NCBI GenBank assembly: GCA_014360645.1
Contig: JACIXD010000008.1
Span: 1-64,000 of the forward strand
From: Actinomycetota bacterium
Lineage (GTDB): Bacteria; Actinomycetota; Geothermincolia; Geothermincolales; RBG-13-55-18
Reading direction: 5' to 3'
DNA: 64,000 nt
The position numbers and the translations under genes were made by a program. Each line of letters starts with the position of its first letter. The first letter of the stretch is position 1. Of the stretch, positions 11,121-23,899 are shown piece by piece. The notes under the pieces are model-generated. The model was not told the origin of the DNA. It did not search any database and saw only the letters and a program-made list of their open reading frames with translations.

Positions 11121-11978
11121 TTGCGAGGCATCGACAGGGAATGGGTGGTCAGGAAGACGCTCTTCGTGCTGTCCATGATGACGGTCCTGGGAGTGCTGCT
11201 GATCGTCTTCTTCGTGGCCAAAGAATCGATGCCCGCCTTCACCAAGGCCGGCCCCGCGAACCTCTTCTCCTCCACCTGGGATCCCGGGAGCGGCCATTAC
11301 GGCATGCTCATCTTCATCACCGGCACGCTTACGACCACCGTCGGGGGGCTTCTCCTGGGCACCCCCCTTGCCATCGGCTCGGCACTGTTCCTGTCCCAGA
11401 TGGCCCCCCGGCGGGTTCGGTCGTTCTTCACCCGCGGCGTGGAGCTGCTGGCGGGTGTCCCCTCCATAGTACTGGGGTGGCTGGGCTTCACGGTCATGGT
11501 CCCCTGGCTCAGGACGGCCACCAGGAGCCCCGGCACGGGTATACTGGCGGCCTCCATCATCCTCGCCATCATGGTGCTGCCCACCATCACCGCCATCACC
11601 CGGGATGCCCTGGAAGCGGTTCCCAGGTCCTACCTGGACGCCTCCATGGCCATGGGGGCCACCCGCTGGCAGACCGTCCGCAGGGTGCTCCTTCCGGCCG
11701 CGAAGCCGGGGATCCTGGTGGCGGTGATCCTGGGCATGGGAAGGGCAGTCGGCGAGACCATGGCCGTGGCCCTGGTCATCGGCCCGGCGACCGCCTACCC
11801 CACCTCCTTGACCTCCCCCACCCACACCCTGACCACCAAGATCCTCATGGAGATGGGTGAATCAACGGGGGTGCAGCGCTCGGCGCTCTTCGCCATGGGG
11901 CTGGTGCTGCTGCTGCTATCCATGGCCCTCATCGCCCTGGTAAGGGTGGTCTCGCGCGGCGAGAAGGGGGCGGCATGA
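11121..11978 (+). CDS. pstC: Phosphate ABC transporter permease PstC
   Basis: 285 residues with six hydrophobic segments. The binding-protein-dependent permease signature is at about 170-190 (D-A-S-M-A-M-G-A-T-R-W-Q-T-V), which docks on PstB. The TTG start at 11121 follows AAGGGGGG. Its last codons ([11 protein letters not shown]) lie in the 173-bp duplicated block, and its TGA overlaps an ATG (ATGA) that now begins a short extra frame instead of full-length pstA. Confidence 0.94.
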   Translation: MRGIDREWVVRKTLFVLSMMTVLGVLLIVFFVAKESMPAFTKAGPANLFSSTWDPGSGHYGMLIFITGTLTTTVGGLLLGTPLAIGSALFLSQMAPRRVRSFFTRGVELLAGVPSIVLGWLGFTVMVPWLRTATRSPGTGILAASIILAIMVLPTITAITRDALEAVPRSYLDASMAMGATRWQTVRRVLLPAAKPGILVAVILGMGRAVGETMAVALVIGPATAYPTSLTSPTHTLTTKILMEMGESTGVQRSALFAMGLVLLLLSMALIALVRVVSRGEKGAA

Positions 11979-12282
11979 ACGGCACGGAGGTCGGCACGGT
12001 GAAGGACGGCGGCCCGCGCGTGGAGGTCGCGGGCGGCTTGTGCGAGCTCAAAAACGAGCGACTCGAAAGGATCCTCAGGGAGAGCATCGCAAGGCAAAGG
12101 CGCCGCGCCCTGGCAAGGGTGGTCTCGCGCGGTGAGAAGGGGGCGGCATGAACGGCACGGAGGTCGGCACGGTGAAGGACGGCGGCCCGCGCGTGGAGGT
12201 CGCGGGCGGCTTGTGCGAGCTCAAAAACGAGCGACTCGAAAGGATCCTCAGGGAGAGCATCGCAAGGCAAAGGCGCCGCGCC
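11933..12282 (+). repeat. 173-bp tandem duplication across the pstC/pstA junction
   Basis: 11933-12109 is repeated at 12106-12282 with a 173-bp offset and only about two base differences (t/c at 11941/12114; c/t in cgg-c/t-gag). It contains the end of pstC, the ATGA junction and the first 46 or so codons of pstA. Near-identity suggests a recent event. Confidence 0.95.
11975..12151 (+). CDS. Short chimeric frame made by the duplication (pstA N-terminus joined to pstC C-terminus)
   Basis: 58 codons: the first 46 residues match the start of PstA ([10 protein letters not shown]...), then because 173 is not a multiple of three the frame enters the copied pstC end ([11 protein letters not shown]) and stops with TGA overlapping the real pstA ATG at 12148. 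It starts by ATGA overlap with pstC. It probably has no independent function but would preserve translational coupling from pstC into pstA. Confidence 0.5.
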   Translation: MNGTEVGTVKDGGPRVEVAGGLCELKNERLERILRESIARQRRRALARVVSRGEKGAA

Positions 12283-13140
12283 GCCCTCGCCGACCGCGCT
12301 TTCACCACCGTGACCTGGGCGGTGGCCGCGGTTGGCCTGGGCATCCTGGCCTTAATCCTCGTGACCATCTTCGCGCGCGGACTGGGCATAGCCCTGGATC
12401 CCAAGTTCCTGTTCGGGAAGCCCCAGGCCTTGAGGGAAGGGGGAGGGATATGGCCCATGGTGGTATCGACCTTCTACCTGGCCGTGCTCACGGCGGTCCT
12501 GGTGGTGCCGGTAGGCGTGGGAGCCGCCATCTACATGTCCGAGTTCGCGCGTGAGGGCCGGGCGACCAGGCTGGTGCGCTTCGGCGCGGATTCCCTTTCC
12601 GCGGTGCCCTCGGTGGTCTTCGGCATCTTCGGCATGGTGCTCTTCGTCATCTATTTCGGGCTGGGATATTCGCTCCTGGCGGGAGCCCTCACCCTCACCC
12701 TGCTCAACCTGCCCACGGTGATGCGCACCTCCGAAGAGGCTCTGAAGGCCGTGCCGGCCTCCTACCGCGAGGCCTCCCTGGCGCTGGGCGCCACGCGCTG
12801 GGAGACGGTGAAGCGGGTGGTTATGCCCAGCGCCGCGCCGGGAATCACCACCGGCGCCGTGCTCGCCATGGGGAGGATCGTGGGGGAGAGCGCCGCGGTC
12901 ATCTACACCGTGGGTATCTTCGTACGCAAGGTCCCGGTCTCTCCCCTGCAGCCGGCGGCCCCCATGGCGGCGCACATCTGGCATACCTACACCGAGGGGG
13001 CGCTGGTGTCGGACTGGATGAGGATAGCCAACGGCGAGGCGGCGTTCTTGCTGCTGCTGGTCCTGGCGCTCAACCTGGGCGCCCGTCTGCTGGCGCGCCT
13101 GCTGGCGAAGAAGACGGGGACGGTGAGCGGACATGAATGA
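12148..13140 (+). CDS. pstA: Phosphate ABC transporter permease PstA
   Basis: 330 residues. An N-terminal cytoplasmic extension of about 45 residues, then six membrane segments; the permease loop [14 protein letters not shown] is at about 210-225. It pairs with PstC. The start ATG overlaps the stop of the chimeric frame (ATGA), and the gene overlaps pstB by 8 nt. The extension lies in the duplicated block, so its first 46 codons exist twice in the operon. Confidence 0.94.
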
Positions 13141-14926: not shown

Positions 14927-14954
14927 TTGTTAAGTTACCGACAGGTATTATAAT
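14927..14954 (+). promoter_or_regulatory. Sigma-70-type promoter for the zinc-ribbon gene
   Basis: TTGTTA (14927-14932), 16-bp spacer, TATAAT (14949-14954). Transcription would start near 14961 and give a leader of about 310 nt before the ATG at 15271. The leader opens with GTCCTG (14961-14966), complementary to CAGGAC at 15019-15024, enclosing a 64-nt element. Confidence 0.5.
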
Positions 14955-15270
14955 ATGCACGTCCTGCGATATAGGGTGGGTCTGTCTCCTGATCATGCCG
15001 GCAAAAGCCTCTCAATGACAGGACCTGCACTTCGCTGACCGACGAACGGAGGCACGCGTAAATGTCCGTGACGCGAATACTGCGGTGGCAGGCGAACGCC
15101 GGATGCCATGCGATCATGCCGCGTGAGAGCAAGACATCCCCCTTTCGAGTGAGGCGGCGGGGGCAGAATGCCTGTAATATATTTGCCGCCGGTGAACGGT
15201 ACCAGGGCGTTTCAAGCCCGACGTTCCCGGGGACGAATCTACTTAATGGTAGGTAAAGGAGGAAAGGTAT

Positions 15271-16353
15271 ATGGCGAACGTCAACGTGTGTCCCCATTGT
15301 GGCGTGCCGCTTTATATCAGCAGCCAGCACAGGTGGCTTGACAACGGGGTCATCCAGCCCGCGCGGGAGGAGAGCCAGCGGCTGGTGTTCTTCGAGTGCG
15401 GCAACCTGGACCCTCTCTTCAAGGGTATAGGGGAGCTCATCGGCATGCCGGTGGAGCGGATGGTCATCGACGCTTCGCGGAGGTCCACGAAACATTACAT
15501 GGACAGGGTGATCCCCGACGACGTGAAGGAGATGATCCGCGCTGGAGATATGGACCTCGACCTGGTCTTCGACTCCACCTTCATCATCTGGCGCGTCATG
15601 GGGTACGGCAGGCTCGCCCTGGACGAGGTACGCTACCGCCGCGAGAAGGACGATTACATTCGCGTGCTGGCGGAAAGGCCCTATTCCGTTCCCCTGGCGG
15701 TGGGGAATTTCGCCGGTTCCATAGAGGCGATAATAGGCAAGGAGCCCGGTATCGAGTTCGAGGAGACCACCCCGGGAGTCTTCGGCATCAAGATATTCGA
15801 GGCCGAGAACCCTCCGGAGCTCAGGCAGAGGCTGCGCTGGAGGGACTACGAGAAGCCCCTGAAGCCCGGGGATATCGATTTCGAGCGATGCCCGGGCTGC
15901 GGCGTGCCCGCCGCTCTCTCCTCCTATAAATGGGACCAGGCCAACGGCTCCATAAGGAGCACGATGACCGGCCGCAGGATGGTCATGACCGGCCCCTCCA
16001 TGATCGACCCCATCTTCGACGAGCTGGAGGGAGAGCTGGGAGACACCATCCCCCGCGTGGTGGTGGAGGCCCAGAAGCGTTTCGTGGAGTCCGGTTTCTT
16101 CGCCGTGGAAGAGGTCGCCAGCGAGGAGAACATGCGCCTGCAGCTCGCCCTTCGCGGGCTGGGCAACCTGAGGGAGCTGAAGATGGGGCGGAGCGGGGTG
16201 AGCCTGCGCCTTGAGAACAGCACCCTGCACCTGTTGGGCGTGGGCCTCGCCCAGGGCTTGTTCGAGAAGGCCTTCGGGGTGGAGAGCGAAGTGGAGTGGG
16301 AGCTCCACGACGATGGCGACCTTGAGGTCCAGGTATCTCCGGGGAAAGGTTGA
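15271..16353 (+). CDS. Internally duplicated zinc-ribbon protein of unknown function (paralog A)
   Basis: 360 residues without signal peptide. Two similar halves each begin with a C-x-x-C-G-V-P ribbon (Cys7/Cys10 and Cys207/Cys210) followed by a region shared between halves (D-P-L/I-F-...-G-E-L, then V-...-A-...-R). Each half appears to bind zinc through only two cysteines, so metal sharing between halves or a dimer is likely. The middle (about 130-175, P-Y-S-V-P-L-A-V-G-N-F-A-G-S-I-E-A-I) faintly recalls V4R small-molecule-binding domains. AAAGGAGG sits 9-10 nt upstream of the ATG. A paralog follows at 16817. I know no function for this family. Confidence 0.75.
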   Translation: MANVNVCPHCGVPLYISSQHRWLDNGVIQPAREESQRLVFFECGNLDPLFKGIGELIGMPVERMVIDASRRSTKHYMDRVIPDDVKEMIRAGDMDLDLVFDSTFIIWRVMGYGRLALDEVRYRREKDDYIRVLAERPYSVPLAVGNFAGSIEAIIGKEPGIEFEETTPGVFGIKIFEAENPPELRQRLRWRDYEKPLKPGDIDFERCPGCGVPAALSSYKWDQANGSIRSTMTGRRMVMTGPSMIDPIFDELEGELGDTIPRVVVEAQKRFVESGFFAVEEVASEENMRLQLALRGLGNLRELKMGRSGVSLRLENSTLHLLGVGLAQGLFEKAFGVESEVEWELHDDGDLEVQVSPGKG

Positions 16354-16430
16354 GTGGAGGCGGAGCCGTGGGATCAGCGGAAGCTCTTCCGGCCGCGTCG
16401 CGATGTTCTGGGTCGCAAGTTCCTGGTATT

Positions 16431-16594
16431 GTCTGGAAGCGCGGCAGCGGCAACCCCTTCCTCCAGCCTGGGCTGGCAGCCTGATGCCTGGACTACTCGT
16501 TCCTACCTCCGGGCCCTGAGCCGATGACCGGTCCGTTCCTTCCCCTCCCGAGCTGGGTCTGGAAGCGCGGCAGCGGCAACCCCTTCCTCCAGCC
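16431..16594. repeat. 38-bp direct repeat between the zinc-ribbon paralogs
   Basis: gtctggaagcgcggcagcgg and the following 18 bp at 16431-16468 recur exactly at 16557-16594 (126-bp offset). The rest of the 460-bp gap (16354-16816) holds no gene. Confidence 0.85.
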
Positions 16595-16816
16595 GAGGTC
16601 TGGAACTCACGGACAGCCCCCGTTTCTTCCTCTTTATGCCTTAGGCCGGTCTTGCCCCTGTGACTCCTCCTGCCGGGAGATCATATCCCGGGCTATTTTC
16701 TGGCCTTCCTCCCCGACGCCGTGAAAACGGGAACCCGCCCCCGTTCTATTTCTGTTAAAATCATGGCGTCAGGAAGCGATTTCGTGGATGGCGAATCACG
16801 GGGGGCGTTTGGATCG

Positions 16817-17884
16817 ATGAACGGCGAGCTGTGCTCGAGATGCGGCGTCCCCTCTTTCGTGGTCAACGAGATCCTGTGGCTGGACAGCGGGGCCATCGTC
16901 CAGCGTAAGGATCAGGGACATCGCTTGTTGCTCCTGGAATGCGAGAACCTGGACCCCCTCTTCGCCATGGTGGGCGAGGCGGTGGGCATTTCTCTCGAGC
17001 CGCTGGTCATCGAGAGCAGGCGCCAGAGCGCCAGGGATTTCGTGTTGAAATATCTCCCCGACGGCTTTCGGCAGATGCTGCGCGGCAACCCCTCGTTGCT
17101 CGACGCCGCCGTCGCCGCCCAGTTCGAGTCCACGCGCATGATGGGCATGGGGCTCGGGCGGCTGCTGGAGCTGCGCTACCAGGACGACGAGGAGGACTAC
17201 GCCCTGGTCGAGGTCCGGGATCCCTTCTCCATCCCCCTGTGGGTCGGGAACCTCCTGGGAGGCATCGAGGCCATGGTGGGAGGGGACTGGTGGTTCGAGT
17301 ATCTGGAGGCCTCTCGGGACTACTGCAAGGTGCGTTTCATGCGTTCCCGGCATGAGGTCGAATGGGGACGGGTCTTCAGGCGCAGGGAATACGAGTACCG
17401 TCCGGGAGAAGCGGACATCGAGCGCTGCGCCTCCTGCGGCGCCCCCTCCGTTCTCGCCCGCTTCTTGTGGATGCTCGACCGCGGTTTCGTGCAGAGCCTG
17501 TACACGGACCGCAGAATGGCCCTCAACGGCGAGGCAGGCCTGCGCGAGGTGTTCTCAGCCCTGGAGGATGAGCTGGGGGAGGGCATAGCCCGCGAAGTGG
17601 TGGATGCCCAGAGGCGGTTCATCAAGGGAGGGTTTTATTCCATCGAAGGCCTCTTGAGCGAGGCGGATTTCCGTACCCAGTTCGCCTTCCGCGGACTGGG
17701 CGACCTGCGCAGGTTCGCCATGGCCTCCTCAGGCCTGTACATGGAGCTGGAGAACGCCACCCTGCACCTCATGGTGGTCGGTTTCGCGCAGGCCCTATAC
17801 GAGCTGGCCTTCGGAAAGGAGAGCCACGTGGAGTGGGAGCTGGATGAAGATGACAGGCTTACCGTCAGGGCCACTCCCGTGTGA
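16817..17884 (+). CDS. Internally duplicated zinc-ribbon protein of unknown function (paralog B)
   Basis: 355 residues from ATG 16817, similar along its full length to the preceding protein, with ribbons at Cys6/Cys9 and Cys204/Cys207 and the shared C-terminal block L-E-N-A-T-L-H-L-...-G-F-A-Q-A-L-Y-E-x-A-F-G. The ATG at 16817 puts the first ribbon at the same place as in paralog A. Longer in-frame starts exist at ATG 16763, 9 bp after a TTAAAAT -10-like box and thus possibly leaderless, and at GTG 16721. The two genes arose by duplication and may form a heteromer. Confidence 0.72.
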   Translation: MNGELCSRCGVPSFVVNEILWLDSGAIVQRKDQGHRLLLLECENLDPLFAMVGEAVGISLEPLVIESRRQSARDFVLKYLPDGFRQMLRGNPSLLDAAVAAQFESTRMMGMGLGRLLELRYQDDEEDYALVEVRDPFSIPLWVGNLLGGIEAMVGGDWWFEYLEASRDYCKVRFMRSRHEVEWGRVFRRREYEYRPGEADIERCASCGAPSVLARFLWMLDRGFVQSLYTDRRMALNGEAGLREVFSALEDELGEGIAREVVDAQRRFIKGGFYSIEGLLSEADFRTQFAFRGLGDLRRFAMASSGLYMELENATLHLMVVGFAQALYELAFGKESHVEWELDEDDRLTVRATPV

Positions 17885-23001: not shown

Positions 23002-23534
23002 AGGCAGGTGGCGAACCCTTGAAAGCGCTGCTGGTGGACGGTTACAACCTCATCTATGCGCACGAGGAGCTGTCGCGGCTCGTGGAGTCGGACATGGACG
23101 CCGCCAGGGAGGGTCTGGTGAGGGAGCTGCAGCCCCTGGCTGCGCCGGGACGCTACGGGGTGCTGATGGTGGTATTCGACGCCGCGGGTTCCCCCAACCC
23201 CGAGCCGGTCTTCGAGGAGCGCGGCGGAATAACGGTGGTGTTCACGCGCAGGACGCAGTCGGCCGATTCCTTCATCGAGAGGGCGGCCCGCAGTATGACC
23301 TCGCGGGCGGAGGTGAGCGAGGTTGCGGTGGCGACCTCCGACCGCGTGCTCTCCTCCCTGGCCGCGGGCTTCGGGGCTCGCGCCATCGACGGGAGGTCGC
23401 TGCTGGAGAGAGCGCGCGAGGCGGCGGAGGAGACGCGGGAGGAGATGAGGAGTTCCGCAGCCCGGCGCGTCCCTCTTGAGGAAAGGGTCGGCGAGAGGAT
23501 ACGCCGCCTCCTTGACGAGATGCGCTACGGTTGA
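22998..23534 (+). CDS. yacP: NYN/PIN-domain RNase, YacP (Rae1) family
   Basis: 178 residues. The core L-L-V-D-G-Y-N-L-I-Y (about 11-20) and later acidic residues mark the YacP/NYN nuclease fold; the Bacillus member Rae1 cleaves mRNA in the ribosomal A site. Its GTG start overlaps the rlmB stop (GTGA); an alternative TTG at 23019 gives a shorter, family-like N-terminus. The last 18 codons are the first unit of the 92-bp tandem array at 23481-23899. Confidence 0.88.
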   Translation: MKAGGEPLKALLVDGYNLIYAHEELSRLVESDMDAAREGLVRELQPLAAPGRYGVLMVVFDAAGSPNPEPVFEERGGITVVFTRRTQSADSFIERAARSMTSRAEVSEVAVATSDRVLSSLAAGFGARAIDGRSLLERAREAAEETREEMRSSAARRVPLEERVGERIRRLLDEMRYG

Positions 23535-23899
23535 TCCTGTTCCGCTCTGGGTCTCGACGCCCTGCCTGTGCGGAAAGGGTCGGCGAGAGGATACGCCGCC
23601 TCCTTGACGAGATGCGCTACGGTTGATCCTGTTCCGCTCTGGGTCTCGACGCCCTGCCTGTGCGGAAAGGGTCGGCGAGAGGATACGCCGCCTCCTTGAC
23701 GAGATGCGCTACGGTTGATCCTGTTCCGCTCTGGGTCTCGACGCCCTGCCTGTGCGGAAAGGGTCGGCGAGAGGATACGCCGCCTCCTTGACGAGATGCG
23801 CTACGGTTGATCCTGTTCCGCTCTGGGTCTCGACGCCCTGCCTGTGCGGAAAGGGTCGGCGAGAGGGTACGCCGCCTCCTTGATGAGATGCGCTACGGT
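23481..23899 (+). repeat. 92-bp tandem array, 4.5 copies, seeded from the yacP 3' end
   Basis: Units start at 23481, 23573, 23665, 23757 and 23849, each opening gaaagggtcggcgagagg. The unit comprises the last 18 codons and stop of yacP plus 38 bp of 3' flank. The first four are essentially identical; the fifth is truncated at about 50 bp and carries substitutions (gagaggGtac, gaTgag). Only the first copy is joined to the gene. Confidence 0.95.

Follow-up and report, generated by a model that had tools for sequence, protein, structure and literature searches.

Two adjacent genes in the window analyzed here, a stretch of 64,000 nucleotides from an actinomycetotal genome (class Ca. Geothermincolia) related to Candidatus Solincola, belong to a protein family that is best read as a lineage-specific expansion of stand-alone double-V4R proteins that are clamped by zinc, bind hydrophobic ligands and act in trans. 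Each member resembles two paired small-molecule sensor domains that one zinc ion probably holds together. With a probability of roughly 0.55, the proteins are zinc-clamped ligand receptors whose ligands differ from paralog to paralog and whose targets are partners or enzymes encoded either elsewhere or next to them. The family is more extensive than the original prediction saw. With ~26 double-domain proteins, the host genome holds ~52 V4R-like domains that the Pfam V4R model misses, and seven V4R proteins in Ignicoccus have been called unusually many for an archaeon (PMC2253512). Since the V4R domain has been put forward as the ancestor of Bet3, a vesicle-tethering subunit of eukaryotes, fused domain pairs also bear on how V4R domains pair and which ligands they bind. 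Moreover, the family offers a handle on the biology of Geothermincolia, a class known mostly from metagenomes.

Two internally duplicated proteins

The first gene, P1 (positions 15271-16353, forward strand), encodes a 360-residue protein with tandem zinc-knuckle and V4R-like parts, and the second, P2 (16817-17884, forward strand), encodes a paralog of 355 residues. The open reading frame of P2 spans 16721-17884; its likely start is the ATG at 16817, preferred over the GTG at 16721 because the resulting N-terminus matches those of the paralogs. The two proteins are 40% identical end to end, and both are real genes under purifying selection, with dN/dS values against two congeners of ~0.10-0.12 for P1 and ~0.18-0.19 for P2.

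Comparison of a half-1 profile with a half-2 profile yields a probability of 99.7% and an E-value of 5.7e-27, which places the internal duplication far beyond chance and bears out what had been predicted for both proteins. Each half opens with a CxxC(G)xP motif. In P1, these knuckles lie at 15289-15300 (C7-x-x-C10) and 15889-15900 (C207-x-x-C210), with both cysteines of each present in 77/77 members, and in P2 at 16832-16843 and 17426-17437, as indicated by Cys conservation across the family; all four are on the forward strand. The two genes in which four related units were first recognized do not form an isolated pair, being two of ~26 paralogs in this genome.

Searches of Pfam and NCBIfam found no family covering P1 or P2 and matched only the CxxC knuckle. 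The family is undescribed in the libraries searched, in line with its initial description as one of unknown function; at the family level no confident match to a characterized family was obtained, and the fold superfamily is now clear. The full-length members examined consist of the two halves only, with no fused output or extra domain, and a scan of the family proteins for transmembrane-like stretches found none. A rubrerythrin match in a PDB sequence search (E = 0.003) was attributed to a chance match of helices plus a CxxC and finds no support in the fold; a zf-Mss51 match (28 bits) is limited to 15 residues at the Cys knuckle; and intein or LAGLIDADG matches in a viral fold library have a very high rmsd and were dismissed as meaningless.

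The V4R fold and its relatives

AlphaFold2 produced confident models both for the whole protein (pLDDT 90.4, pTM 0.88, from a 35-sequence alignment) and for half 2 alone (pLDDT 93.4, pTM 0.86, from 146 pooled halves). The V4R-like domain of P1 half 1 covers residues ~38-177 (15382-15801, forward strand), as judged from the model, Foldseek and hhalign, and that of half 2 covers residues ~236-357 (15976-16341, same strand). In Foldseek searches, the whole model matched H-NOX, PoxR, MopR, DmpR, Bet3/TPC6 and YslB. The top matches of half 2 were the V4R domains with which MopR, PoxR and DmpR sense phenol, with E-values from 9e-6 and query-normalized TM scores mostly of 0.60-0.68, followed by H-NOX, Bet3/Trs33, the V4R protein MJ1460, BcsD and YslB. 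The predicted models display the five-helix, four-stranded alpha/beta fold of the V4R superfamily, also known as the NO-signaling/Golgi-transport fold, with a Foldseek probability of 1.00 to PoxR, MopR, H-NOX, Bet3 and MJ1460.

Sequence profiles point the same way. A profile of the pooled halves aligned by hhalign with a reference profile of 20 true V4R proteins from Geothermincolia, gathered with PF02830, reached a probability of 90%, an E-value of 1.6e-6 and a score of 45.6, against 13.4 +/- 2.5 (maximum 20.4) for shuffled columns. Single-half profiles gave a weak match to V4R (8-12%), which fits the merely faint V4R resemblance noted at the outset. Small residues three apart in helix alpha-5 are common to V4R and Bet3 (PMC2253512), and this small-xxx-small pair (GxxxG) is found in half 1 of 74/77 members and in half 2 of 76/77. 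For the small-residue pair of helix alpha-2 the picture is mixed, with small residues at positions 68 and 72 of half 1 in 90% and 64% of members and at position 267 of half 2 in 70%. Structure, profile and the alpha-5 pair together strengthen the V4R-like reading and, with it, the sensor-like reading; that the family has the V4R fold and is homologous to V4R is close to certain. The fold is that of V4R, but the proteins fall outside the Pfam V4R, MopR-type and heme families. The PF02830 model scores above its cut-off for two other proteins of the host genome and for 0/26 family members. The genes of those two genuine V4R proteins were located at G000:C8:67099-67272, ~3 kb past the end of the window, and at G000:C7:9544-9717.

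Comparison with these relatives outlines what is distinctive about the family. Canonical V4R proteins (PF02830), such as MJ1460 and the two in the host genome, have the same fold, a collinear profile alignment and the alpha-5 GxxxG, whereas the family escapes the Pfam V4R model, is duplicated, carries additional zinc knuckles, and lacks the conserved C-terminal Cys of V4R. The TRAPP subunits Bet3, Trs33 and TPC6 share the fold, the GxxxG pair and the pairing of two domains, whereas the family is bacterial, has added knuckles and conserves no Cys elsewhere. H-NOX heme domains match in Foldseek with E ~1e-4; unlike them, the family has no heme ligand, because no His is conserved. Bacillus YslB and the cellulose-synthesis protein BcsD belong to the same fold superfamily, but no sequence relation to them was detected and they are devoid of the zinc knuckles.

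Invariant cysteines and a candidate zinc site

In an alignment of 77 full-length members spanning Geothermincolia, C7, C10, C207 and C210 are invariant (77/77), with CxC spacing in the second knuckle of one member. No other Cys or His is conserved in this alignment, and His reaches at most 26/77 members at any position (<=26/77). The two knuckles are ~200 residues apart, and Pfam matches cover the knuckle alone. The predicted two-Cys ribbon in each half holds insofar as a Cys motif does open each half, but each half has only one knuckle, which amounts to half a zinc site. Because a single knuckle cannot complete a zinc site, a shared Zn(Cys)4 site is proposed as the simplest solution, in which one zinc ion likely bridges both halves through the four cysteines.

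A close parallel is provided by MopR, PoxR and DmpR, the XylR/DmpR-type sigma-54 activators whose aromatic-sensing V4R domains are the best fold match of a single half. These proteins contain zinc, as the family probably does, and work as dimers. The family differs in being stand-alone, with both domains in one chain and no AAA+ or DNA-binding domain. The V4R part of MopR-type proteins binds zinc through three Cys and one Glu and anchors phenol through a His and a Trp (PMC10715001), whereas the family has an N-terminal Cys knuckle in place of the 3 Cys + 1 Glu site and does not conserve the phenol-anchoring His.

The remaining conserved residues are mainly Gly, Trp and Pro, which are typical of structural roles. 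Conserved polar residues do occur (R37, E152, R236, E255 and N316), and they would suit an enzyme with a V4R fold or a factor that helps enzymes mature; such a role is nevertheless improbable, given that a catalytic signature, for instance a conserved set of the Ser/His/Asp type, is absent and that the conserved positions, chiefly Gly, Trp, Pro and Cys, are structural in type.

Proposed mode of action and gene neighborhoods

Hydrophobic compounds are the presumed ligands of V4R domains, which are presumed to signal in cis or in trans (PMC2253512). In the receptor reading, each polypeptide would be a fused pseudo-dimer of two V4R-superfamily domains, whose two knuckles most likely hold one structural zinc ion jointly and so clamp the halves together. 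The alpha/beta cores probably bind small hydrophobic ligands, acyl or aromatic, with different paralogs presumably taking up different ligands. On binding, the halves would shift relative to each other, and the ligand-bound protein would go on to affect partner proteins or neighboring enzymes in trans; since no output domain is fused, signaling would have to occur in trans. Conservation among ligand-contacting residues does not point to any particular ligand.

Family genes have varied neighbors, including phosphate transport, acyl-CoA dehydrogenase, acyl ligase, response regulator, histidine kinase and cell-wall genes as well as an MCP. Enrichment is weak both for acyl-CoA dehydrogenases (p ~0.1) and for response regulators (p 0.01-0.07, uncorrected), and both signals were set aside. 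The clearest linkage is the operon of orthogroup C, in which two successive alpha/beta hydrolase genes, the family gene and a GAF-GGDEF cyclase gene follow one another in this order in five genomes; at the loci inspected most closely (L075, L081 and L096), the family gene directly adjoins the second hydrolase, and the cyclase begins 15 to 52 nt downstream. This cyclase linkage was found in only one orthogroup among those examined. A broader proposal, put forward only tentatively, is that the class maintains a private sensory repertoire, in which every cell has dozens of zinc-clamped, stand-alone receptors of the double-V4R type that recognize different hydrophobic compounds and feed partners in trans, for example c-di-GMP signaling via the operon-linked GAF-GGDEF cyclase.

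The same neighborhoods could be read in terms of transport. Bet3 in TRAPP carries an acylated Cys in a hydrophobic channel, and the family might comprise Bet3-like carriers of lipids or acyl chains, or trafficking proteins, which would supply enzymes with acyl groups or buffer such groups for them and would not be sensors. The fold matches to Bet3/Trs33/TPC6 would suit this idea, as would neighbors such as acyl-CoA dehydrogenases, an AMP-binding acyl ligase, a PlsC-type acyltransferase, alpha/beta hydrolases and short-chain dehydrogenases. It appears rather unlikely, however, as the absence of conserved Cys beyond the knuckles leaves no conserved Bet3-like acylation site, the acyl-CoA dehydrogenase linkage is not significant, and P1 itself is flanked by phosphate transport genes and gltX.

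Distribution and evolution

A genome search identified ~26 paralogs in the host genome, with identities down to roughly 22%, and other Geothermincolia genomes have 2 to 35 family matches each. In a profile survey across the phylum, all 20 Geothermincolia genomes were positive (20/20), compared with 0/226 of the other Actinomycetota, so that the family is restricted to Geothermincolia as far as tested, that is, within Actinomycetota. Carriage by phages, plasmids or viral contigs was rejected, as searches of all three found no member. Most paralogs in the host genome are scattered single genes; one cluster of five tandem family genes lies on contig C9 (L013:6737-13209; G000 contig C9, ~54.5-61.3 kb). 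The cluster derives partly from recent duplication (period ~2.8 kb, 91% over 3.7 kb), and two of its gene copies encode identical proteins; the tandem duplication could be real or an effect of assembly.

A contig scan with close orthologs gave a synteny set of 8 named relatives; P1 is flanked by phoU and gltX in every one of them, and P2 is present in four of the eight (L036, L038, L042 and L043). The family tree separates P1 and P2 into distinct orthogroups. These data bear on the suggestion that the four units form a heteromeric assembly. The genes are adjacent paralogs and the pair is maintained in two genera, as an obligate P1-P2 heteromer with four units per assembly would lead one to expect, yet L037, L039, L040 and L041 keep P1 without P2, and 463 nt separate the two genes. 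The gap contains two terminator-like sites, a number not above chance expectation. With half of the relatives lacking P2, an obligate heteromer is not supported and seems very improbable; each polypeptide already contains a pair of units of its own.

Two further genomes of the family carry different paralogs at other places within blocks that are otherwise syntenic, so members appear to come and go singly. Within the window, several family members show weak matches in the same register to positions ~1926-2050 (best E-value 1.9e-4 when 600 bases were searched). At this place genome G005 carries a family gene that is intact (L108:8905-9966); the segment in the window is possibly the remnant of a lost copy.

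Upstream regions and local repeats

The promoter that had been predicted before P1 was found at 14927-14954 (forward strand) as TTGTTA-16-TATAAT, with 10/12 hexamer matches where 0.5 such sites are expected by chance; judged by eye, the hexamers are conserved in two congeners, L036 and L042. The untranslated leader of ~310 nt (14955-15270, forward strand) is likewise present at P1, but it is not a feature of the family: alignment with relatives shows no conservation past the genus level, and comparison of the upstream regions of the paralogs found no common motif. A riboswitch in the leader was rejected on the grounds that no Rfam family matches it and conservation stops at the genus, and a common regulator of the paralogs was rejected for want of a shared upstream motif.

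The upstream regions also bear on the idea that the proteins are transcription regulators that contact DNA through the zinc knuckles and detect a ligand with the V4R halves, by analogy with MsvR and DmpR, which have other DNA-binding domains. Coupling to transcription or signaling is usual for V4R domains (PMC2253512), the family has a likely zinc site, and its members mostly occur as single genes with an intergenic setting. We nevertheless consider this unlikely, because domain searches show no helix-turn-helix or other DNA-binding domain, the paralogs share no operator-like upstream motif, and the proteins are mostly acidic (pI ~4.9 for P1 and P2; family median 5.6).

Several repeats were recorded in the window. 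A 115-bp unit is repeated 2.3 times between phoU and P1 (14627-14888), and an exact 38-bp direct repeat lies between P1 and P2 (16431-16468 and 16557-16594). A 92-bp unit with several repeats of about 95-99% identity occupies 23477-23899, downstream of or overlapping the end of the open reading frame 23019-23534. In addition, a 173-bp tandem duplication (11933-12282, 98% matches) covers intergenic DNA and the start of a pstA-like gene (open reading frame 12148-13140), and because the duplication spans this start, where the gene begins may be ambiguous.
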